A stretch of 32,968 bases of DNA. Source: Thermodesulfovibrionia bacterium (lineage in GTDB: Bacteria > Nitrospirota > Thermodesulfovibrionia > JACRGW01). Both the position numbers and the translations under genes were made by a program. Under the pieces are notes generated by a model, which was given only the letters and a program-made list of their open reading frames with translations, searched no databases and was not told where the DNA came from. Numbering within the stretch: position 1 is the stretch's first letter; each line of letters starts with the position of its first letter. Positions 291 through 32,618 of the stretch are shown in pieces. The DNA lies in assembly GCA_919902995.1 (NCBI GenBank), contig CAKKSD010000012.1, positions 1-32,968 of the forward strand, written 5' to 3'.

Positions 291-3200
291 TTATATCTTC
301 TTATTTCTCCCCTCCACAATTGCAATCTCCTCTGGCGTGAGGCCGTAGAGGGCATAGACCATTTTATCAATCTGCTGTTCAAGGGTGGAGGTGTCGGCGT
401 TGGGGTCTTTCTTTTTGGCGGTGAGGATTTGGTCAACGAGGGTGATGAAGGGCTGCTGGGCTGATTCTGGGATTATTTTTATTGGAAATTCAATAACAGT
501 TTCGTATTTTAATGTGAAGGCACCTCCTGCTGTCATAATTCCAATAAAACCAAAATAAAACTCCATCAGCTTGCTATTCATTAAAGCCAAAAGATATTTT
601 ATGGGAATTGTTTTAGAAGTAAGAATATATCCGTTGCTGGGCAAGAAATGATTTTCGTTGTCATAAGCAAATGCCCATTTATCGGCTGTAAGTCCCCATA
701 TAATTTTTTCTTTTTCAAATTCAGGATAATAAGAAGCAGCACATCTTTGAAGAGAATACCATTCATATCTAATTCCTGTTTCCTCTTTATTTCTTTCAGA
801 AAGTTCATTTTTAAATTTCTGTAAGTGTTTATAAAGCGAAGAATATTCGGTTTTCAATTTTTTTTCGGCTTTTTCGGAAGCGCCAGAAATTGAAGCATCA
901 TTATGTAAAGGGAAATGCCAAGGCACAAACAATAAATTCTCATTGTTGCTTTCAAAAATCCACTTCTTAATATTACGACCTTGAAGCAAGGGCTTGATGA
1001 TATCCTTGTTTGCTTTATCTTCTTTGATTAGTTCTTTTCTTTTTTCATCATCAATAATAAAAGCAGAGTTATAGCCAGTGGTAACACCTCTATAAATATT
1101 TATTGTTCCCATTTCGCTCATTCGAACAGACCCTGCTTCAATTTTCTCTTTCAAGGAAAGATTAGTCTCATTGTCCAATTGCCAAATTTTCTCGCTAAGA
1201 TTACTTTGTTTCAAAAAGAATCGGTTTCTATCAACAAACGCGTTTAAATCGGGAAAATCTACCAAAATATCATTGACATAAACTATTTTGACTTTATTGT
1301 CTAAGTTTTTGTTTTTTGAAATAACAACAATACAACTGGCAACTAATGCTTCAAAAACATGGACATCAGTGAAATCAATAATTTCATTGATATTAAAAGT
1401 TGTGAAATATTGTCTCAATTTTTCTCCGTAGCTTGTTTTTATAAACTTGTTTGAAGTGATATAAACAAGTGCTCCATTATCTCTCAAGTTTTTTATTCCT
1501 TTTTCATAGAAATAAACATATAAATCGGCTGTGCCTGAATATGTTGAATAACACTTTTTCAATTCAGAAGATATGCCTTTTAATTTTTTATGTTCAACAT
1601 ACGGCGGGTTTGCAATCACCACATCAAATCCTCCTTTATGATGAAAAACTTCAGAAAAATACACCTCAAAATCAAATTCTTTATGCCCTTTGGTAATCTT
1701 GCCTATCAGTTCATCAATTCTGTTTTTATATTCCTGTTTTTTGGTGGGATTGGTTTCGTTAAAGTAGAGTGGTTTTAGCCGTTCCAGTTCATTAAATAAA
1801 TCACTGTTAAACAAGTTTTTCTCCACGCCTAACAGTGAATTACCACAGACAATCTTATAATCCAGATTCGGCAGGGGCTTGATGTTTTTTATATCATCTT
1901 CATCCACAACAAGCGACAGCCACAAACGGAGCTTGGCGATCTCTACCGCCCCAGGGTCTATGTCCACGCCATAGAGCGATCTTTCTATGCATTCGCGCTT
2001 AAAGTTATAGATGGTTCTGTGCTGGTCTTTAATAAAAGCAGACAGTACATTCCTTGTCTTTACTATCTCTGCCATCATGCCGACAGGAAACGCGCCGCTG
2101 CCTATGGCGGGGTCGCAAACTGCTATGTCCTCAAGCTTATTGTCAATGAGTTCTGCGTTTTGCCTGATGCTTTCAGGGAGTTTGTAAAAATAGGTCTTGG
2201 TCTCTTTCCCTCTTGCTTCAACGGTTGCTTCATTTTCTCCGAGCTGTTCGCCGTATTTGATGAGCATTTCAATGTCCTCGCGAGAGATCTTCTTGACAGA
2301 TTCATCTTCCTTTAATTGTTCTGTCATGCCGGCTTGTCCGGCATCCTTCTTCAAGAAAGATTCCCGACGAGCGGGAATGACTGAAGATGGAAAGTTTTCA
2401 GCCATAACACTATTCATGTCCTCATTTAATGCCGAGTAAAGGTAATATATAAGGCTCTGCTGACACATATAATGCACAATCTCACGCGGTGTGTAGTAGG
2501 TTCCTTTTGATTTGCGGTCTTTTACCTCAAGCAGGTTTTCAAAGACCTTGCCGAGCATCTCAGGGTCAACCGCCACCTCTTTTTCAAGCGGCTCATCTTC
2601 CTTGACTGTGAAGTTGTAACGGTCAAATATGTCCAGGATACCGTTGCCAGTGTCACCTTCCTTTGTCTTAAAAGAATTGGAAAAGAGTTCATTTGGCAGC
2701 AGAATATCTGTTTTCACCCAGTCATAGCCGTTTATAGGGTCAAACAGACCGCCGTTTAAAAAGGGGATTTTGCAGTTGAAGCGGCTGTAATAATAATCGT
2801 CCTGCTTCCGTTCTTCACCAACCCGCAGGGCTTCATAAAAGAGCGGCTCCAGAATGTCATTAAAGAAATTTTTATAATCACTGTGTTTTTTCTTAAAGAG
2901 TTCACGCAAAAAATGTTTTGAGCCTGTTCCCCATTCTGCATCACGGCCTACGCCAAACCAGCCCTTTTTCTGAAGAAAGTAGAGGAAGACTATCTGTCCC
3001 AGCAGCTTCTTTGCAAAGTCAACGGTATTTATGCCTTTGTTCTCAAACTCGGCCTTTATCTTTTTGTCCCCTGAGACAACTTCATCAAGTATTTCCTTTG
3101 TCCATAGAAAAAGGTCGCGATATTTCTCAAAAAACTCTTTGGTGACTTTTTCGATGTTGAAGGCTTCTTCAAGCTCTGCAAGAGCGGGGTCGTGCTCGTC

Positions 3201-3728
3201 ATCGGCAATAATAGGATAAAGTTTGCTTTGAGCGGTGTGGCTGTTTTCGTTTGCACCAACAAGAAAAGACCATCTGCGGGCTGGAGTAAATTCTTCCTTA
3301 ACTTTGACCCTACCGCCTTTCCCTTCTTCAAAGCGGTAGTCCATTTTGACAAGCGAAAAACGCCAGTCCTCTTCATTGGGCGAGACAAACGCCGCAAGTG
3401 CGGCGTCTTTCAGCTCACCGCCCCGGCTGCCATTTAGATACCATGCGACAAAGTTTCTCTGCATGGTGCGGGCTCGTTCAAGGGAAGTCTCTTTCTGGAG
3501 TTTTATGACAAGAATATCAATCCTGTTTTCACCGTCATTGAATTTCCCTATTCGCTCCAGACTGCTGATATATACCTTGTAGGCGTCAGGAATGTATTGC
3601 CCCTGATAAGTAAAGGGGGCTTCTTCAATATGGTTTAAAAGGTCCTTGATAAATCTGGTAAACCTGCTCTTATCAAAAGTATTTTCAAAGGTTTCTTTAA
3701 TGAGATTCCGTGCCTGTTGTTTATCCAT
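291..3728 (-). CDS. Eco57I-like N6-adenine DNA methyltransferase / restriction-modification protein (type IIG-like)
   Basis: 1145 aa; motif I VCDPAIGSGAFPVGMM, motif IV FDVVIANPPYVEH, C-terminal target-recognition-like region. Confidence 0.9.
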   Translation of the reverse strand: MDKQQARNLIKETFENTFDKSRFTRFIKDLLNHIEEAPFTYQGQYIPDAYKVYISSLERIGKFNDGENRIDILVIKLQKETSLERARTMQRNFVAWYLNGSRGGELKDAALAAFVSPNEEDWRFSLVKMDYRFEEGKGGRVKVKEEFTPARRWSFLVGANENSHTAQSKLYPIIADDEHDPALAELEEAFNIEKVTKEFFEKYRDLFLWTKEILDEVVSGDKKIKAEFENKGINTVDFAKKLLGQIVFLYFLQKKGWFGVGRDAEWGTGSKHFLRELFKKKHSDYKNFFNDILEPLFYEALRVGEERKQDDYYYSRFNCKIPFLNGGLFDPINGYDWVKTDILLPNELFSNSFKTKEGDTGNGILDIFDRYNFTVKEDEPLEKEVAVDPEMLGKVFENLLEVKDRKSKGTYYTPREIVHYMCQQSLIYYLYSALNEDMNSVMAENFPSSVIPARRESFLKKDAGQAGMTEQLKEDESVKKISREDIEMLIKYGEQLGENEATVEARGKETKTYFYKLPESIRQNAELIDNKLEDIAVCDPAIGSGAFPVGMMAEIVKTRNVLSAFIKDQHRTIYNFKRECIERSLYGVDIDPGAVEIAKLRLWLSLVVDEDDIKNIKPLPNLDYKIVCGNSLLGVEKNLFNSDLFNELERLKPLYFNETNPTKKQEYKNRIDELIGKITKGHKEFDFEVYFSEVFHHKGGFDVVIANPPYVEHKKLKGISSELKKCYSTYSGTADLYVYFYEKGIKNLRDNGALVYITSNKFIKTSYGEKLRQYFTTFNINEIIDFTDVHVFEALVASCIVVISKNKNLDNKVKIVYVNDILVDFPDLNAFVDRNRFFLKQSNLSEKIWQLDNETNLSLKEKIEAGSVRMSEMGTINIYRGVTTGYNSAFIIDDEKRKELIKEDKANKDIIKPLLQGRNIKKWIFESNNENLLFVPWHFPLHNDASISGASEKAEKKLKTEYSSLYKHLQKFKNELSERNKEETGIRYEWYSLQRCAASYYPEFEKEKIIWGLTADKWAFAYDNENHFLPSNGYILTSKTIPIKYLLALMNSKLMEFYFGFIGIMTAGGAFTLKYETVIEFPIKIIPESAQQPFITLVDQILTAKKKDPNADTSTLEQQIDKMVYALYGLTPEEIAIVEGRNKKI
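2323..2381. repeat. Dispersed palindromic repeat inserted in frame in the methylase gene
   Basis: GTCAT..ATGAC ends enclosing two hairpins (GCCGG-CTTGT-CCGGC and ATTCCCG-ACGAG-CGGGAAT); encodes VIPARRESFLKKDAGQAGMT inside the methylase. Confidence 0.7.
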
Positions 3729-3737
3729 AAATTTTTA

Positions 3738-3765
3738 TTGACAAGGCGCCTTTTTATGCTATACT
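3738..3765 (+). promoter_or_regulatory. Predicted sigma70 promoter with extended -10, opposite to the operon
   Basis: TTGACA (3738-3743), 16-bp spacer, TGC-TATACT (TATACT 3760-3765). Confidence 0.6.
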
Positions 3766-3770
3766 AATTT

Positions 3771-3828
3771 TAGAATCACGATAAGAGGCTATCCAAAGGG
3801 TTTCGTCCCGCGGTAATGCCTCTTTTTT
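3771..3828 (+). ncRNA. Candidate ~58-nt small RNA antisense to the NYN-methylase intercistronic region
   Basis: Starts at the expected TSS of the promoter above; contains hairpin AAGAGGC (3783-3789)/GCCTCTT (3818-3824) with an internal GGG-TTTCGT-CCC hairpin, followed by a T-tract. Confidence 0.5.
3783..3828 (+). terminator. Rho-independent-type terminator
   Basis: 7-bp perfect stem AAGAGGC/GCCTCTT running into TTTTTT on the + strand. Confidence 0.55.
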
Positions 3829-4318
3829 ATTGTCTTTTATATTCCATTTTGCCTCTTAAATCATTCATAAAAACAATATCTTGAGAAAACTTCCTGAGCA
3901 GAGACGAATACCGGTTTCTGTTAGGAATCATTAATTTCAACAACTTATCTTTTCTCTTGAGATAATCGACCAGACAATAAAAGTCGCCGTCTCCCGAAAC
4001 AATGAGGGCTTTGTCGTAATTGGGATATTCTACCATTGTGTGAAGCACTAACTCTGCATCAACGTTACCTTTTGCTTTGCCTTCCGGCAAATTCAAGGTT
4101 GGCTTAAAAACAAGAATATACCCATCTTTTTGTAGCGATGTATATAGGTTCTGGTTCGTATTAATATATCCAATAAAAATAAAGGCCTTGCTGATGCTGT
4201 ATTTATCCTCGAGATATTTTCTAAAACGTCTAAAATCGAGAATCCATCCTTGGTCGCGAATTGCAAGGTTTACATTCTGGCTATCTATAAAAGCATAATT
4301 ATTCTGGTTTTCACTCAT
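3827..4318 (-). CDS. NYN domain (PIN-like, LabA/DUF88) putative RNase
   Basis: AFIDSQNVN, KGNVDAELVLHTM and ALIVSGDGDFYCLVDYL carry the NYN acidic residues. Confidence 0.88.
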   Translation of the reverse strand: MSENQNNYAFIDSQNVNLAIRDQGWILDFRRFRKYLEDKYSISKAFIFIGYINTNQNLYTSLQKDGYILVFKPTLNLPEGKAKGNVDAELVLHTMVEYPNYDKALIVSGDGDFYCLVDYLKRKDKLLKLMIPNRNRYSSLLRKFSQDIVFMNDLRGKMEYKRQ

Positions 4319-4320
4319 AA

Positions 4321-7300
4321 TTATTGTCCGATAAGATACTCCGACAAAATAACCTCTCTTGGTCCAAAGGTCTGTGCCGCGCTTTCTGAAATATGTTCCT
4401 TGAGAAACTCGGAAGGAATATTCTTCTGTAATACTGCCAACAGTTTTAAAGGATTTATGCCGTTTTTTAATTCCTTATTTATTTCTTGGAGTGCTTTCCT
4501 TGCGGTTTGTTTAGGCAAACCTCCTTCTTCAAGCTGTCTTATAACTGTTTTAAGATAAACTTCCTGCTCATCAGTAAATTGCCTGAAATCCCGGATAGCC
4601 TTTAATATTTTCAGTAACTGTACTGCACTTTCCCTACTACCTCCTGCTTTATGTTCGGGCATTTCCTCTGCTGTTGCAAATTCAAAGGCTTTTTTATTTT
4701 TCTCTAATAAATCGTAATAATCTTTACCGAGTATCTCACGCTGAACATTTTCATCTGTCTCTAATATTTTTGCTGATGTCATGAAATCCAGTTCTTCAGG
4801 TTCGCTTTTGCCGACTAAGAAGAATTTCTGTAGCTTCCCTTTGCGGAAATAAGTCAAAAGTCTGTTAAATCCCCCCTTGCCCCCCTTTACTAAAGGGGGG
4901 ATGGGGGGATTACATTTTCGGGCTGTTCTTGCTTTTTTCGGAAGATGCTTAATCTGGACAAACAAATCAGGATTATTATCACGGATATCTCTAATTACCT
5001 GCAGATATTTAAGTTCACTTTCTTCATGTTCATCTTCGCCGGTGATTGTTTTCTTGGAAATCAAACGATTGAATAATTCAAAAGATTCTATAGGCTCACC
5101 CTCTGTTAAAAGACGGGCGTCTGTCCCAAGCATAGTAATAAAAGCGTGAATTTTTGCCTCTGCTGCTTCTCTTAACTTTATCTGGTCATTTGATTGCTTT
5201 GTTGGAAAAAAGTTAAAAGTATATATCTCATCAAAATTCGTATCTACACGATTAACACGCCCCACCCTTTGCATTAAACGTGTCGGATTCCACGGTATGT
5301 CATAATTAATAACAATATTTGAACGGTGAAGGTTCACGCCCTCGGACAAGACCTCTGTTGCAACAAGTATTCTATAATCATCTTTTGGGAAACGCGCCCT
5401 TGCATCAAAATTATCAATTACCTTATCACGAACAATTGCGCTCGATGCGCCAGTAAAGGTAAGAACTTCTTCTGGGAATTTCTTTAGCAGGTTTTTGGAA
5501 AGATACTCGGCGGTCTCTTTTGATTCAGTAAAAACAATTAATTTATTCTTTTTTAATATTGCCCTATGTAAAAGAATATCAATAAATTTCAGGAGTTTTG
5601 GATCACGCTCAATTTGTTCCCATGACTTTTGAATCTCTGACAATATTTTTAAATCATGTTCTAAGTTTTGTTTTAATTCCTTTCCGAAATCCTTTGCTGG
5701 ATATTCCTTTGCCTTATCCTCTTCAATAAGCCTTTGAACTGCTTCATCATCGCCATTTTCAAGAAATTCAAAGATTTTGTTTATGTGCTTTTTGCTAACA
5801 TAAACTCTGCCTTTTTTAAATTCTTCAAGAAATCTTGTATATGAGGCAATAAAACGGTCAATGGTATTCTTGAAGGCATGGAAGCTACTTTCCAGCCGTT
5901 TGACCAAAAGAATTTTCATGAAAGTGCCCATATTCCTTTGTGACTGCAACTCTAACTGGTCTATCGCCTGCTCGCCTATATAAAAAAGCAACGGTGTATA
6001 ACGGGCATATTTGAATTCATGTGCAATCAATTTAATAGTAGTGTTGAATATTCTGTCTTCTTCTTCGTTTAATTCATAGAATACTGGTTCCGGATCATTT
6101 ACTTCAGGAAATTTAAGATTTTGTTCTTTAAGGTCTTCACCATAATATTTTTCAACCTCTGTTCTTGTCCTTCTGACCATTAAATACTTGAGAACATTTT
6201 CCCTGATATCTTTTGCATTTTCCTTAGCAGTTTTAATGTATTTTTCATAATCTTTTTGCCTGTCCAAGTCTTTAATTTTCTTTTCAAGCCTTGAAAAGAA
6301 CGATTTTAAATCGGAGACATTAGGAATAGTGCTTCTTCGTTCTTTCTGGAATAGTTTTAACTGGCTTAGGATATCCCTTGGGGTATTGTTGAGCGGTGTA
6401 GCGGTAACCAGAGCAATCCTTTTGCCCCGACAAATCTGTGCAAGTTTCTCATAGGTTATATTTGTCTCTGTCCTGAAACGATGGGCTTCATCTATAAAAA
6501 TATTCTTATATTTTTCAGTTCCGCGTCTAATCAAATGTTCCAACTTGCCTATTGACTCAAAATCAGCAGGGATTCGGAAGTCAGAAAACACATTAGGCCA
6601 GGAGCCGGGGTTGTTCTTTTCCAATAAAACAGGCGGGGCAATAACTAATGTTCGTCCATCAAGCTGATTGGCAAGCATAGCTGATACATATGTTTTTCCA
6701 AGACCAACTACATCTGATATAAAAACACCGCCATATTCTTCAAGAATCTTTTTTGCATTTAAAACAGCCTGCTCCTGATATTCCAATTTTTTAAAGTCAA
6801 TAGGAACATATTTATAAAAGACTTCATCGGTCTGACTTATCTCGTCTTTGAAGTACTCATACAAAAACTTTAGGTATAGTTGATAAGGTGTGATGGTGTT
6901 ATTTAACCAGGTTTTTGATTGAATGGTTTCATTATACTTATCCTTTATATCAACGGCGTTTACCCAGAGTTCGTTAAATTTCTTAATGGCAAAATCATAA
7001 TCAGTCCTATTTTTAAGTTCAACATTGAACTCCAGATTATCTATTAAGCCAGATTGAGTAAAATTGCTTGAGCCTGTAATAACCCTTCCAATATCCCTGT
7101 CGCCTTCGGTAAAGGTCATTATATAAAGTTTAGCGTGGATATTTTGAGTGGGATATGCCTTTATTTCCAACTTGCCTGTCTTTAACCATTCCAAGAATTT
7201 CAAGACGCCTTCTTCAACATATCTGTTGTCTTCAGAATTTCCCATTTCATGCACAACACCTTCTGAAAACTGTTCTTTTACTTCTGCATGGGAAAATTGT

Positions 7301-7545
7301 AAGTGCTGCTGTTGTGGAGATTGCGCTTGCCGAATAATATCAAAGGCCTGCCTATTGGTACTTATTCCTATAAGAATTCTGATTTTTTGTGTTTTCTCTA
7401 AAGATTTGTAAATCGCATAAAAACCACTTGTGAAAAAATAACCAACCAATACGTCAAATAGTTCAGTGTCTTTGATAAGAACTTTGAATCTGTCTAAAAG
7501 ATTTCTATCGGGTTCGTTAGTGATAAAAGTTAAGTCGGTGTTCAT
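4321..7545 (-). CDS. Phospholipase D-like domain + SNF2/SF2 helicase fusion
   Basis: N-terminal HAKLYIMTF..GSSNFTQSGL (PLD half-motif); helicase motifs DVVGLGKT, IDEAHRF, VTATPLNNT, VATEVLSEGVNL, MQRVGRVNRVD. Confidence 0.9.
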   Translation of the reverse strand: MNTDLTFITNEPDRNLLDRFKVLIKDTELFDVLVGYFFTSGFYAIYKSLEKTQKIRILIGISTNRQAFDIIRQAQSPQQQHLQFSHAEVKEQFSEGVVHEMGNSEDNRYVEEGVLKFLEWLKTGKLEIKAYPTQNIHAKLYIMTFTEGDRDIGRVITGSSNFTQSGLIDNLEFNVELKNRTDYDFAIKKFNELWVNAVDIKDKYNETIQSKTWLNNTITPYQLYLKFLYEYFKDEISQTDEVFYKYVPIDFKKLEYQEQAVLNAKKILEEYGGVFISDVVGLGKTYVSAMLANQLDGRTLVIAPPVLLEKNNPGSWPNVFSDFRIPADFESIGKLEHLIRRGTEKYKNIFIDEAHRFRTETNITYEKLAQICRGKRIALVTATPLNNTPRDILSQLKLFQKERRSTIPNVSDLKSFFSRLEKKIKDLDRQKDYEKYIKTAKENAKDIRENVLKYLMVRRTRTEVEKYYGEDLKEQNLKFPEVNDPEPVFYELNEEEDRIFNTTIKLIAHEFKYARYTPLLFYIGEQAIDQLELQSQRNMGTFMKILLVKRLESSFHAFKNTIDRFIASYTRFLEEFKKGRVYVSKKHINKIFEFLENGDDEAVQRLIEEDKAKEYPAKDFGKELKQNLEHDLKILSEIQKSWEQIERDPKLLKFIDILLHRAILKKNKLIVFTESKETAEYLSKNLLKKFPEEVLTFTGASSAIVRDKVIDNFDARARFPKDDYRILVATEVLSEGVNLHRSNIVINYDIPWNPTRLMQRVGRVNRVDTNFDEIYTFNFFPTKQSNDQIKLREAAEAKIHAFITMLGTDARLLTEGEPIESFELFNRLISKKTITGEDEHEESELKYLQVIRDIRDNNPDLFVQIKHLPKKARTARKCNPPIPPLVKGGKGGFNRLLTYFRKGKLQKFFLVGKSEPEELDFMTSAKILETDENVQREILGKDYYDLLEKNKKAFEFATAEEMPEHKAGGSRESAVQLLKILKAIRDFRQFTDEQEVYLKTVIRQLEEGGLPKQTARKALQEINKELKNGINPLKLLAVLQKNIPSEFLKEHISESAAQTFGPREVILSEYLIGQ
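4868..4911. repeat. GC-rich palindromic repeat inserted in frame in helicase
   Basis: AATCCCCCCTTGCCCCCCTTTACTAAAGGGGGGATGGGGGGATT; encodes CNPPIPPLVKGGKGGF. Confidence 0.75.
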
Positions 7546-11128: not shown

Positions 11129-11518
11129 ATGGGGAAGATAGAGCGTTTTGAAGATATTAAGGCATGGCAGGAAACAAGAAACTTAGTAAAAGCGATTTAC
11201 AATCGCACAAATAATAATTCGAAGTTTAATCAGGATTTCGCCTTAAAAGACCAGTTAAGAAGGGCATCGATTTCAATAATGAGTAACATTGCCGAAGGAT
11301 TTGCAAGGAGAACCGATAAAGATTTTGCAAGATTTTTGTATATCGCTCTTGGATCGGTCTCAGAAGTACAAAGCCAGGTGTATGTTGCATTAGATTCAGG
11401 GTATATTACAAAAACTGAATTTAACGAATGTTACAGAAATACATCAGAAACAGCTAAATTAATTGTAGGGTTTCTTAAATACTTGACTGCTGACCGTCGA
11501 CTGGGAACTGAGGACTGA
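11129..11518 (+). CDS. Four helix bundle protein (S23 / 23S rRNA intervening sequence-like)
   Basis: FEDIKAWQETRNLVKAIYNRT..KDQLRRASISIMSNIAEGFARRTDKDFARFLYIALGSVSEVQSQVYVALDSGYI is the characteristic family pattern. Confidence 0.92.
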   Translation: MGKIERFEDIKAWQETRNLVKAIYNRTNNNSKFNQDFALKDQLRRASISIMSNIAEGFARRTDKDFARFLYIALGSVSEVQSQVYVALDSGYITKTEFNECYRNTSETAKLIVGFLKYLTADRRLGTED

Positions 11519-26665: not shown

Positions 26666-26890
26666 ATGGCAAAAGGCAGAAAGCCGAAATATTCAGGCAA
26701 TAACAGCATAGAAGCCTGTCGGCATGAAACCGATAGCCGCAAAAATGCTGTCTCTGTTGGCCTTGCCTCTTACGACACATCAAAGCCAAAACCAAAGAAG
26801 TATGGGTATGACCTGCACCTTGATCCGCAGCTTGTCTGGTTGGGGAAGAAAGAGCATACTTCTCTTGAAAGGTTGACATGGCTCGTTTGA
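26666..26890 (+). pseudogene. Truncated N-terminus of type III Mod-like adenine methyltransferase, copy 1
   Basis: EACRHETDSRKNAVSVGLASYDTSKPKPKKYGYDLHLDPQLVWLGKKEHTSLE; no methylase motifs follow; homologous to 27498-27746. Confidence 0.65.
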
Positions 26891-27237
26891 GATTCCTTGC
26901 AGATGTGAACATAGAAAAGCCCATTGTGGATGAATTAAAAAGGATGGGACATAATATTATTTGGATTGCCGATTTAGACAGGTATTTGGACGACATGAAT
27001 ATTTTCAAGATAGCAAGAAAGGAACACCGCATCCTCTTAACTAATGACAAGGATTTTGGTGAGATTGTATGCAGGCAAAAGCTTGTACCTACTGGAATTG
27101 TCCTTTTCAGGATTAAGGGGCAAGATGTAAGAGAAAAGGTAAAATTATTAAAGAAGCTTTTGACTGCCCATAGTGATAAAATAGTTAATCATTTTGTTGT
27201 TGTGGCCAAGGAAAAGTTTAGATTTATTCCTATATAA
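26878..27237 (+). CDS. DUF5615 PIN-like domain protein (putative toxin)
   Basis: RFLADVNIEKPIVDELKRMGHNIIWIADLD..RILLTNDKDFGEIV. Confidence 0.88.
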   Translation: MARLRFLADVNIEKPIVDELKRMGHNIIWIADLDRYLDDMNIFKIARKEHRILLTNDKDFGEIVCRQKLVPTGIVLFRIKGQDVREKVKLLKKLLTAHSDKIVNHFVVVAKEKFRFIPI

Positions 27238-27255
27238 CCAGAAGGAGGTAACAAG

Positions 27256-27486
27256 ATGAAAGCAAGGCTGCTGAACAGGATAGAAACAAACCCGAATATA
27301 ATGTTCGGGAAGCCTGTAATAAGGGGTTCAAGATTACCAGTAGAGATAATCCTTGAAAAGCTTGCCTATGGCGAGACAGAGGATGAGATATTGAAGGAAT
27401 ATCCATTTCTTAAAAAAGAAGATATAAAGGCTGCTCTCTTATTTGCCGCTAAGACAATATCGCTTGAAGAAGTCATGCAGACATAG
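27256..27486 (+). CDS. DUF433 domain protein (putative antitoxin)
   Basis: RIETNPNIMFGKPVIRGSRLPVEIILEKLAYGETEDEILKEYPFLKKEDIKAALLFAA; strong SD GGAGG. Confidence 0.93.
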   Translation: MKARLLNRIETNPNIMFGKPVIRGSRLPVEIILEKLAYGETEDEILKEYPFLKKEDIKAALLFAAKTISLEEVMQT

Positions 27487-27497
27487 AGGAGGTTTAT

Positions 27498-27746
27498 TTG
27501 GGAAGGAAAGCGAAGAAAAACGAAGACCTTGAAGCCTGTCGGCATGAAACCGATACCCGCAAGAATGCCGTGCCTGTTGGCCTTGCCTCTTACGACACAT
27601 CAAGACCTAAACCTAGGGAATACGATTATGACCCGCACCTTGACCCGCAGTTAGTCTGGGCAGGCAAAAAAGAGCATACCTCTTTTGAAGTCCCTACTGT
27701 ATCCCTTCATATACACGAAAGAGTAGCGTTGGAGGATATGATCTAA
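27498..27746 (+). pseudogene. Truncated N-terminus of type III Mod-like adenine methyltransferase, copy 2
   Basis: EACRHETDTRKNAVPVGLASYDTSRPKPREYDYDPHLDPQLVWAGKKEHTSFEVPTVSLHIHERV, then stop. Confidence 0.7.
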
Positions 27747-27803: not shown

Positions 27804-30485
27804 ATGCCTAACGACCAAGTGATAGTTGATGAAGACAAAGACCGAGCTATTAGGTTATTCAGCTATTTAAAAGAATTTGTCCGACTTCGGTCAACAATCA
27901 CACGAGACATATCATCCTATGAAGAAGTGCTTTGGCTTCACGAAATACCTAACGAGCATGGCTGGTATTCTGCGCATTGGGGAATTCAAGATGAGAGAAC
28001 GGATGACATTTGGGTTGAAGCAAAAAAGCCTAAAGTTCCTGAATGTCCACAGCCTCCAACCATGTGTGACGGTTGGTACTCAAGGGACGAATTAATCAAT
28101 ACAAGAGATATCCCAGCAATTCAAAAAATTCGGCATGTGACTATTCAAACAAATGATACAGATAGTAAAACCGAAACACAAAGAATAGAAGATCATCCCG
28201 ATGTTGAAAATGAATGGAACAAGTATATTGAGCAAAAATGGTTCCCATGGATGGAATTATATGAAAAGATTCGTCCATCACAAGAAATATATGGGAAATT
28301 ATTTAGGATGTATCAGTTATCAAACAAGCTTGGTGAATCGTACGAACTTATTATAGGTCTTGGATTTTTAACATGGAAAACCCGACAAAACCAAGAAGTG
28401 CGCAGACATATAATAAGTGCACAAGCAAGACTTGAATTTGACTCTAACACGGGAACTCTTACAATACGCCCCGGGATAGACGGGGCAAGAATGAATTTTG
28501 AAGATGATATGCTTGACCCATCTGAATGTCCTCCTTATGATGAACTTCAAGCTATTCAAAGTGCTCTGCAAGATAATAGTGAAAATCCATGGGATAGTTC
28601 AATAATACATTCTATAATTAGAAGTTGGGTTCATTCTTTAAGTTCAGAAAGCGCATTCTCACCCGATAATATTCCACCTAAAGTTGTTACCGCTGATCCG
28701 AAATGCAGTTTTGCACCTGCAATTATACTGAGAAAAAGAACACAGAGGGGCTGGATAACCGCATTCGACAACATAATAACACGATTAAAATTAGAGAAAA
28801 ATATCCCGAATAATATAAAATTATTGGTTAACATTTCGGATAGCATTAACGGTTCTACAAGAAGACAAACAGACACTTCACTTTTAGAACAGAATACTTA
28901 TACAAAAAAAATTGAAGATTCACATGTATATTTCCCTCTACCTACAAACGACGAGCAACTTAAAATCATACAGAAGCTTCATTCTTCAAATGGCGTGAGA
29001 GTTCAGGGACCTCCCGGAACAGGAAAGAGTCATACTATTGCCAATATCATTTGTCATTATCTTGCAACTGATAAAAAGGTACTTGTAACCGCCTATGCTC
29101 CAAGGGCATTAAAAGTATTGCAAGATAAAATACCTCAGGAACTTTTGGCATTATGTGTAAGTGTCTTGGGTCACGACACACAATCTATGGAAAATCTACA
29201 GAGAGCTGTTAATGAAATTACCGAGAAATTTAACGATTGGAATGAAGAAAGGAATAACCAAAATATTCATGAACTCCAGAAAGAGCTTAATCAGTATAAA
29301 GAAGAATCGGCAATTATAAAGAAAAAGCTAAGGGAATTAAAAGAAAAAGATACATATAAATTCTGCGATATTGTTGGTTATGAGGGGACTGTACAGGAAA
29401 TTGCAAAATTAATTAAAGCAAATGAGGAGAATTTTGGTTGGATTCCTGACAGGGTAGAATTCGGAACAACTGCACCATTATCTAATCTTGAATTCAAAAA
29501 ACTTTTATACCTGCTGCGTGATATTGAAAAATCAGAAGAGAAGGAATTAACCCTTCACAGGATTAAAAGCAACGAGGTCGATGACCCTGATTTAATGAGA
29601 AACCTATTCAATGATGAAAAGAATGTGAAAGAGGAGCTTAACGCCTATCAACACTATTCTTTAAATGATTATCACTTTAAGATATTAATGGAAGTTGATG
29701 TTAATAAAAGACAGTTTGCATTAGAATTAATTACAGAACTGAGAAAGGCAATAGATGAAGGCTTAAGAAGGTCTTTTGCTTGGTTAACGCAAGCAGTTTT
29801 TGATATATTGGCTGACAATAGCCAACCTCTACAACGTTTATTCGAAACTACCCGCAGAAGGATTAAAGGATTGAATGAAAAAGCACAAATAGTTGATGAT
29901 TATCAGATCAAATTGCCTGACATAGATAAGGCTCAAATTTCTGCAGATGCAAACGACCTGCTTGAATATTTAAAATCCGGCAAAAAAATATATTTCTGGC
30001 CATTTCAGCCAAAGGTAATCAGAAGAACCAAGTATTTGTGGCATGAAACATATATAGATGGACGACCCTGCGACAATATTATCAGCCTCGAGAAAATTCT
30101 GGATTATTTGGACGTTGATAAAATAGTTAATCAATTATGGGTTGACTGGGGCAACATGGTCACAAAAGCAGAAGGCTCTTATGTGTCTCTGGTAGCACTT
30201 ATCTCTGAACAATCAAAAGCGCTTGAGAGTATTTTAGCTATTGATACCCCGCTTCAGGAATGTAAAAAAGCAATAAAAGACCTTTCTGTTATAAGTGAAC
30301 CAAAATGGCACGAATCAAATGAACTGTTTGAATTAGAAAAACGTCTCAAGGCATCGGTAGCTTTTGAATCAGAAAAGAATATCAAGAGTAAATTTGAAGA
30401 TATTGAGGATATTATTGATCACTATGTAAATCTCAATAATTCAAGTGCTATCAATTTAGAGTTTAGCAATTCAGTAAAGCAGTGA
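27804..30485 (+). CDS. SF1 (Dna2/NAM7/COG1112-like) helicase, N-terminal part with Walker A, ends at in-frame TGA
   Basis: VRVQGPPGTGKSHTIANIICHYLATDKKVLVTAYAPRALKVL; followed by TGA at 30483-30485 and continuation in the same frame. Confidence 0.88.
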   Translation: MPNDQVIVDEDKDRAIRLFSYLKEFVRLRSTITRDISSYEEVLWLHEIPNEHGWYSAHWGIQDERTDDIWVEAKKPKVPECPQPPTMCDGWYSRDELINTRDIPAIQKIRHVTIQTNDTDSKTETQRIEDHPDVENEWNKYIEQKWFPWMELYEKIRPSQEIYGKLFRMYQLSNKLGESYELIIGLGFLTWKTRQNQEVRRHIISAQARLEFDSNTGTLTIRPGIDGARMNFEDDMLDPSECPPYDELQAIQSALQDNSENPWDSSIIHSIIRSWVHSLSSESAFSPDNIPPKVVTADPKCSFAPAIILRKRTQRGWITAFDNIITRLKLEKNIPNNIKLLVNISDSINGSTRRQTDTSLLEQNTYTKKIEDSHVYFPLPTNDEQLKIIQKLHSSNGVRVQGPPGTGKSHTIANIICHYLATDKKVLVTAYAPRALKVLQDKIPQELLALCVSVLGHDTQSMENLQRAVNEITEKFNDWNEERNNQNIHELQKELNQYKEESAIIKKKLRELKEKDTYKFCDIVGYEGTVQEIAKLIKANEENFGWIPDRVEFGTTAPLSNLEFKKLLYLLRDIEKSEEKELTLHRIKSNEVDDPDLMRNLFNDEKNVKEELNAYQHYSLNDYHFKILMEVDVNKRQFALELITELRKAIDEGLRRSFAWLTQAVFDILADNSQPLQRLFETTRRRIKGLNEKAQIVDDYQIKLPDIDKAQISADANDLLEYLKSGKKIYFWPFQPKVIRRTKYLWHETYIDGRPCDNIISLEKILDYLDVDKIVNQLWVDWGNMVTKAEGSYVSLVALISEQSKALESILAIDTPLQECKKAIKDLSVISEPKWHESNELFELEKRLKASVAFESEKNIKSKFEDIEDIIDHYVNLNNSSAINLEFSNSVKQ

Positions 30486-30488
30486 GAT

Positions 30489-32618
30489 TTGAAAGGCTGG
30501 TCAACTGCTTATTACAAATTGAAAGAATTAGAAGCGCGTTCTAAATTGTTATCTGAGCGGAAATTGTTATATCAAACTCTCAAAGACCGTCTGCCTGAAT
30601 TAGCCGATGAATTAATCAATAGCTATCAGAATGTGCAATGGAATCATCGCGGTGAACAGTTTGAAGAAGCTTGGAACTGGTCATTGGCTGATACATGGCT
30701 ACAAGATTATGAGGCAAAGCATGATTCAGAAAAATTAAATGCATCTTATGTAAGGCTTCAACAAGACATCGGTAGAACCATAGCTAAACTTGCGGCAAAA
30801 ATGGCTTGGGCTCATTGTTTAAATAATATGACGAATGAACAACGAACTGCTCTTTTAGCATGGCAGTCTGCAATCAGGAGAATTGGATCTGGTAAAAGGA
30901 AAGGAAGTGTTCAAGCTCAGAGGGATGCCGCACAACATATGAAAGAATGCAGAAAAATAATACCTGCATGGATTATGCCACTATATAGAGTGATTGAAAC
31001 TATTAGTGAGACACGCTCAATAGAGCCAGAAATATTTGATATGGTCATCGTTGATGAGGCAAGTCAATGCGGGCCGGAGGCACTGATTGTTCACTTTTTA
31101 GCTAAAAAAGTTATTATTGTAGGAGACGAGGAGCAGGTTGCTCCTGAAAATATTGGTGTGCAAGAAGAGGATGTCCAACGCCTGAGAACACTTTATCTTG
31201 ATAATATTCCAGCACCAGTTGCACTTGGCAGGGACAGTACTCTTTTTGAAAATGCAGGCTTGCGATTAAGAGAAAGAGTTTTTTTACGCGAGCACTTTAG
31301 ATGCATGCCCGAGATTATCCAATTCTGCAATGACTTGTGCTATGCACCGCTTGGGAAGACGTTGATACCATTACGTCAATATGGTACTGACCGTTTAGAG
31401 CCTCCGATAGTAACCGAATATGTTGAATCCGGCTATAGAGACAGATCGTCAAGCGGGAGCCTTATTAAAATGAATCATTCGGAAGCTAAGAGAATTGTAG
31501 ACAGAATCATAGAATGTTGTAATGACCAGAAATATGCGAATAAAACAATGGGGGTCATATCAATGTTGGGGGATGAACAGGCAAGGCTGATTGAAGGGAT
31601 GCTAATGAAAAATCTTTCCCCTACTGAATATGAAAAAAGGAAATTATTATGCGGGACATCAGCTTCTTTTCAAGGCGATGAACGGGACGTAATTTTCATT
31701 TCTATGGTAGATGCACCACCATCTCAATTTAAGGCGATAACAAAGGATACAGATAAAAGGCGATTCAATGTAGCTGTGAGCCGTGCAAAAGACCAGCTTT
31801 GGGTTTTTCATAGCTTTCAATTATCAGATATTAAGAGTAATTGCTTCAGACATAGATTGTTGCGGTATTGTAAGAATCCTCACAGACCGATTGTACCCGG
31901 GGGAATTGAAAAGTGTAAGACACAATTCGAAAGAGATGTATTCTTTAAGATAACTCAGCGTGGATACAGTGTAATCCCACAAGTTGAAATTGCCGGGAAA
32001 TTTATTGACTTGGTTATTGAAGGAATGCGTGCACGACTTGCCGTAGAATGTGATGGTGATGAGTGGCATGGCCCCGAACGTTGGGAAGAAGACATGGAAA
32101 GACAAAGAACTCTCGAACGATGCGGTTGGAGATTTTGGAGGGTCAGAGGGAGTGAATTTTTTAGGAGTCAAGATGAAGCGATGAGTACTCTATGGGATCA
32201 GTTGGACGGTATGCAGATATATCCATATAGAGAAGATAGAAGTCGTTCTTCTGAGAGGGAGGAAGATGAAGAGCTAATAGAAAAAGAGATAGAGATAGAG
32301 GACAATATCGAGTCAGATGATGAAATGGAGATCAAGAACGCAATATCAGATATTGTACAAATCAGCATAAATTCAATGAAAGATTTAGATAAAAAGATAA
32401 TCCGAGAAATCATTATCCACTTATTAAATGAAAATAGCAGAGGAAAAGATCTGTTACCAACGGCTGTAATTCGAAGGTCAGGCTTGGCCGTAAGAGGGCA
32501 TAATCGTTCAAGAGTCGTTAACAGGATCAATAGAGTCGTAAATGAAATGCTTAAGAATGGTGAGGTACAGCAATATAAGACTCAAAAAAGGATAAGGTTT
32601 AAGCTGCCGGATAAATAA
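30489..32618 (+). CDS. SF1 helicase C-terminal part with Vsr/DUF559-like endonuclease domain
   Basis: Walker B DMVIVDEASQCGPEAL, FLREHFRCMPEIIQFCND, ASFQGDERDVIFISMV, RRFNVAVSRAKDQLWVFHS; nuclease FERDVFFKITQRGYSVIPQVEIAGKFIDLVIEGMRARLAVECDGDEWHG..RQRTLERCGWRFWRVRGSEFF. Confidence 0.88.
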   Translation: MKGWSTAYYKLKELEARSKLLSERKLLYQTLKDRLPELADELINSYQNVQWNHRGEQFEEAWNWSLADTWLQDYEAKHDSEKLNASYVRLQQDIGRTIAKLAAKMAWAHCLNNMTNEQRTALLAWQSAIRRIGSGKRKGSVQAQRDAAQHMKECRKIIPAWIMPLYRVIETISETRSIEPEIFDMVIVDEASQCGPEALIVHFLAKKVIIVGDEEQVAPENIGVQEEDVQRLRTLYLDNIPAPVALGRDSTLFENAGLRLRERVFLREHFRCMPEIIQFCNDLCYAPLGKTLIPLRQYGTDRLEPPIVTEYVESGYRDRSSSGSLIKMNHSEAKRIVDRIIECCNDQKYANKTMGVISMLGDEQARLIEGMLMKNLSPTEYEKRKLLCGTSASFQGDERDVIFISMVDAPPSQFKAITKDTDKRRFNVAVSRAKDQLWVFHSFQLSDIKSNCFRHRLLRYCKNPHRPIVPGGIEKCKTQFERDVFFKITQRGYSVIPQVEIAGKFIDLVIEGMRARLAVECDGDEWHGPERWEEDMERQRTLERCGWRFWRVRGSEFFRSQDEAMSTLWDQLDGMQIYPYREDRSRSSEREEDEELIEKEIEIEDNIESDDEMEIKNAISDIVQISINSMKDLDKKIIREIIIHLLNENSRGKDLLPTAVIRRSGLAVRGHNRSRVVNRINRVVNEMLKNGEVQQYKTQKRIRFKLPDK

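Follow-up and report, generated by a model that had tools for sequence, protein, structure and literature searches.

A putative helicase–nuclease defence gene interrupted by one in-frame stop codon, most likely a recent loss, in a Thermodesulfovibrionia genome

In the draft genome of a Thermodesulfovibrionia bacterium (2.01 Mb, 69 contigs), a gene for a large helicase–nuclease is interrupted by a single in-frame TGA, and we consider it very probable that this locus is a single-gene defence effector that was recently inactivated by a nonsense mutation. The gene lies on contig C12, which was analysed in its entirety (32,968 nucleotides) and is called the window below. Since related genes are single and intact, the case is most likely that of an ordinary, mildly interesting, recently broken immune gene.

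Results

ORF reading of the window gave one frame of 1605 codons with one internal stop (Table 1), as the first-pass annotation had described it. The two ORFs lie in the same frame with only TGA and GAT between them, and the read-through translation has 1604 residues without a further stop. In residue numbers of this translation, Walker A (402) is followed by the stop (894), Walker B (1080) and the nuclease D...ExD (about 1400–1419). The TGA thus lies between the two Walker motifs, in agreement with the earlier assignment of Walker A to the first half and of Walker B, the later helicase motifs and the nuclease to the second. Both halves align end to end with one continuous protein (41% identity over residues 12–1496 of the closest homologue in the class), and the ORF pair is hence a split gene rather than a chance arrangement. 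A search of the genome's contigs found no second copy.

Table 1. Features of the broken gene and of the remnant directly upstream
Feature	Position	Strand	Basis or remark
DNA methylase remnant (82 aa, N-terminal part)	27498..27746	+	homologue of 874 aa in Planktothrix
Broken gene, predicted 1604-residue UPF1-like SF1 helicase–PD-(D/E)XK nuclease	27804..32618	+	one frame, one stop; full-length homologues
First ORF, 893 aa	27804..30485	+	
N-terminal region, residues 1–361, family-conserved, no DUF4011	27804..28886	+	Pfam, AlphaFold
Walker A GPPGTGKSHT, invariant across the family	29007..29036	+	motif reading
All-helical insertion of ~590 residues that separates Walker A from Walker B	29178..30950	+	AlphaFold core model
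Internal TGA (codon 894), predicted to fall in an inter-helix loop of the insertion	30483..30485	+	alignment of relatives, AlphaFold core model
Second ORF, 709 aa, called from TTG	30489..32618	+	no Shine-Dalgarno sequence; first in-frame ATG 105 codons downstream
Walker B VIVDEASQ	31041..31067	+	motif reading
Later helicase motifs GDEEQ, REHFRCMP, FQGDERD, RRFNVAVSRAKD	31113..31793	+	motif reading; Pfam AAA_12
MTES_1575 PD-(D/E)XK nuclease domain, D...ECD residues intact	31926..32204	+	Pfam PF18741, E 1.8e-32

By its motifs I–VI and its modelled fold alike, the helicase part is a UPF1-like SF1 helicase. A profile built from 14 relatives matched UPF1, SEN1, DNA2 and SMUBP-2 in the PDB, the AlphaFold core model matched UPF1 and SEN1 by fold, and Pfam AAA_11 matched around Walker A in the first half; with a pTM of 0.46 for the core model, the relative placement of its domains is not trusted. 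The N-terminal region (residues 1–361) gave no Pfam match even at E 0.1 and no match in a fold search against the PDB at E≤0.001, with a mean AlphaFold pLDDT of 70. Earlier doubt about a DUF4011 N-terminus was thus well placed, with no Pfam match at E 0.1 in residues 1–359. The nuclease had been called Vsr/DUF559-like. Here Pfam returned DUF559 far more weakly than MTES_1575 (E 1.1e-5 versus 1.8e-32) and Vsr not at all, and the best assignment is MTES_1575, with 111.7 bits against a gathering cut-off of 38.2 and D...ECD present.

Among 231 genomes of the class Thermodesulfovibrionia, 43 had matches, many of them to the shared helicase core alone. Copies aligning along the query comprised 14 unbroken frames, three whose visible part is unbroken up to a contig end, and three, this one included, that are broken. 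Each of the 17 unbroken homologues from the class whose sequence covers the stop site has a sense codon in its place. In the aligned relatives this column holds Arg (11), Lys (5) or, once or twice each, other residues; intact plasmid homologues have a sense codon as well, and relatives on viral contigs have Arg, Gly or Pro there. Intact environmental relatives include a Fusobacteria ZRK30 gene and a Variovorax plasmid gene. The site hence tolerates change, and nowhere else is it a stop. The sense codon that had been predicted for homologues at 30483–30485 was thus found, mostly as Arg or Lys. On viral contigs, a query with the second half found no relatives, whereas the family alignment found 14; a scan of the genome-wide collection gave just one, weak relative. 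Of 81 residues invariant in the family, the broken gene has kept 80, and its motifs are all preserved. A native two-gene organisation was ruled out, as none of the relatives is natively split at this point, and an apparent start near the split in one genome (G021) belongs to a copy that is actually cut by a contig end.

TGA is the normal stop of six other genes in the window, none of which has an internal TGA, and among the scanned tRNA loci only tRNA-Sec has an anticodon for UGA, with CCA in tRNA-Trp. The genome uses the standard code; on the evidence of the normal TGA stops and the scanned tRNA loci, an alternative code was rejected, and so was a suppressor tRNA. Readthrough or recoding of the TGA, for example as selenocysteine, would restore a full-length protein, and both the tRNA-Sec of this genome and the intactness of every downstream motif would suit it. 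However, no aligned relative, viral-contig relatives included, has Cys at the stop column, which makes selenocysteine insertion unlikely; moreover, the RNA folds downstream of the UGA are weak and by eye not SECIS-like, no other copy carries a stop here, and no opal-suppressor tRNA was found among the tRNA loci scanned. We hence regard readthrough, which the first-pass annotation had listed among its options, as extremely improbable.

Two polypeptides might also be made and then reassemble, given that a split in an insertion loop could be tolerated. The second ORF is open, and the core model predicts a loop between helices at the stop, but the ribosome-site energy of the TTG restart is −1.3 kcal/mol compared with a gene median of −4.2, and neither the TTG nor nearby starts are preceded by a Shine-Dalgarno sequence. 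The first RecA domain, furthermore, would have to be shared between two chains, an arrangement with no natively split counterpart among the relatives. Complementing halves, as had been proposed, are thus very improbable. We hold to be just as doubtful a functional split in which the stop limits a costly helicase–nuclease via rare readthrough or two-chain assembly, that is, an off-switch that one mutation could reverse, in a family with repeated breakage.

Broken relatives carry lesions of several kinds. One class member (G076) has an in-frame TAA shortly after motif III; in another (G156) the frame shifts near query residue 953 and is broken near 1228. A Deinococcus actinosclerus plasmid copy (L056 5174–11547) combines two in-frame TAG codons with an IS701 insertion, and an in-frame TAA interrupts a copy on a viral contig (L117). 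These lesions all lie at differing places, which argues against a programmed site, and as judged from the aligned copies breakage in this family recurs independently. Left out of the count was a truncated prophage copy (L122) that ends at about query residue 739 and whose later part was not found. Six unannotated, near-identical Acinetobacter copies were rejected as broken and remain uncounted: each lesion is an indel of a single base, mostly within a homopolymer, and probably a long-read error.

Such indels can make an intact copy look broken, as in some Acinetobacter records, and the stop described here might likewise stem from a base-calling or assembly error, or be a minor allele in a mixed population, with the gene intact in the living organism. 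The many contigs of the draft genome and the absence of a second lesion in 4.8 kb would agree with this. Yet the lesion is a substitution-type stop and not a homopolymer indel, and AcrB, taken from the window as a control, had no internal stop in the same 231 genomes among about 150 listed matches (roughly 150,000 codons), where flagged stops were taken as natural ends from the reported open-frame lengths and not one by one. An error, also among the options of the first-pass annotation, is therefore unlikely, although it keeps a small share of the probability. Compared with AcrB, the broken fraction of the family (3 of ~19 copies) gave a Fisher p of ~0.001, a comparison that controls for sequence error and not for selection. 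A few damaged copies were also found for the defence controls taken from the window, the SNF2 helicase included. Breakage may thus be common to defence genes in these genomes, and we make no claim that it is unusually frequent here for a defence gene.

A recent nonsense mutation, the remaining option, fits both the sense codon in homologues and the absence of a second lesion. A random substitution in this frame generates a stop in about 5% of cases. Under assumed indel-to-substitution ratios of 0.03 to 0.15, the 4.8 kb without another lesion imply that neutral divergence after the loss has reached at most roughly 0.3–0.8% substitutions per site. Apart from the stop, no decay is visible, although a working readthrough or split protein would predict the same.

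Upstream, the gene is preceded by a DUF5615/DUF433-like pair and by the methylase remnant, which is a second broken defence gene directly adjacent to it. In the pair (26878–27486), the DUF5615 ORF comes first and is followed by a DUF433-like ORF; together they are probably a toxin–antitoxin pair. Downstream, a further ORF starts with a good ribosome site and is cut by the contig end (32821–32968). Elsewhere in the window, the minus strand at 291–7545 encodes a Type IIG Eco57I-like enzyme, an NYN-domain ORF and an HKD/PLD-SNF2 helicase; in about 20 genomes of the class the two large genes share a contig and lie near each other, which suggests a conserved module. An ORF of the 23S rRNA-intervening-sequence-protein family (11129–11518) sits inside an RND efflux operon, between the membrane fusion protein and AcrB. 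In G060, the closest relative overlaps a HipA_2 kinase-like gene, after which comes a DUF3037 gene (L094 4975–6683). No BREX genes were found on this contig. Relatives on Acinetobacter plasmids, by contrast, lie within a type I BREX locus (pglX, pglZ, brxL), where they follow brxL at a distance of 63 bp. This segment is described in a paper on GR13 plasmids (PMC9455709), in the text of which the words helicase and AAA are absent.

Discussion

In its intact form, the gene would encode one protein of ~185 kDa with an N-terminal region, an SF1 helicase and a C-terminal MTES_1575 nuclease, in which the first RecA domain of the UPF1/SEN1/DNA2-like helicase would carry the helical insertion of ~590 residues. 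From its domains and context, we propose that the protein would load onto nucleic acid that is foreign or abnormal, use ATP to translocate along it and cut it. The nonsense mutation in the insertion would end translation at residue 893; the truncated product would keep Walker A but lose Walker B, the second RecA domain and the nuclease, and should hence be inactive. An antiphage role of the family is putative and is suggested by gene context and by resemblance to other families.

If the loss is recent, the locus offers a clear, small case of bacterial immune-gene turnover, in which a large defence gene next to a methylase remnant was caught just after its loss, and whose family has been broken repeatedly across unrelated hosts. 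It also points to a candidate helicase–nuclease family that some plasmids carry within BREX operons; the Acinetobacter relatives share the position after brxL with auxiliary genes of type I BREX.

Among known systems, Hhe (helicase-DUF4011-Vsr) is likewise one large protein in which an SF1 helicase precedes a PD-(D/E)XK-type nuclease, and the first-pass annotation had seen a resemblance to it. Our query, however, lacks DUF4011, its nuclease is MTES_1575, and the NCBIfam Hhe score of 138.9 bits is far below the cut-off of 2000, which rules out membership. The best NCBIfam match was antiphage ProA (NF058533; E 9e-58), where 195.7 bits against a curated cut-off of 1500 exclude membership as well; our literature search found no paper describing it. 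UPF1, SEN1 and DNA2 are alike in their helicase core by sequence and fold, whereas the query is bacterial, with a C-terminal MTES_1575 nuclease and a large helical insertion that is predicted to separate Walker A from Walker B. The best PADLOC match was PDC-S37, a single-gene phage defence candidate for which the literature search found neither a paper nor a published mechanism. It is like the query in length (1550) and layout, but matches with only 203 bits (E 2.1e-60) in two stretches, best over residues 844–1587 and with no curated cut-off given, and the query family may thus be a sister family. We file the gene as a broken member of a PDC-S37-like helicase–nuclease family.
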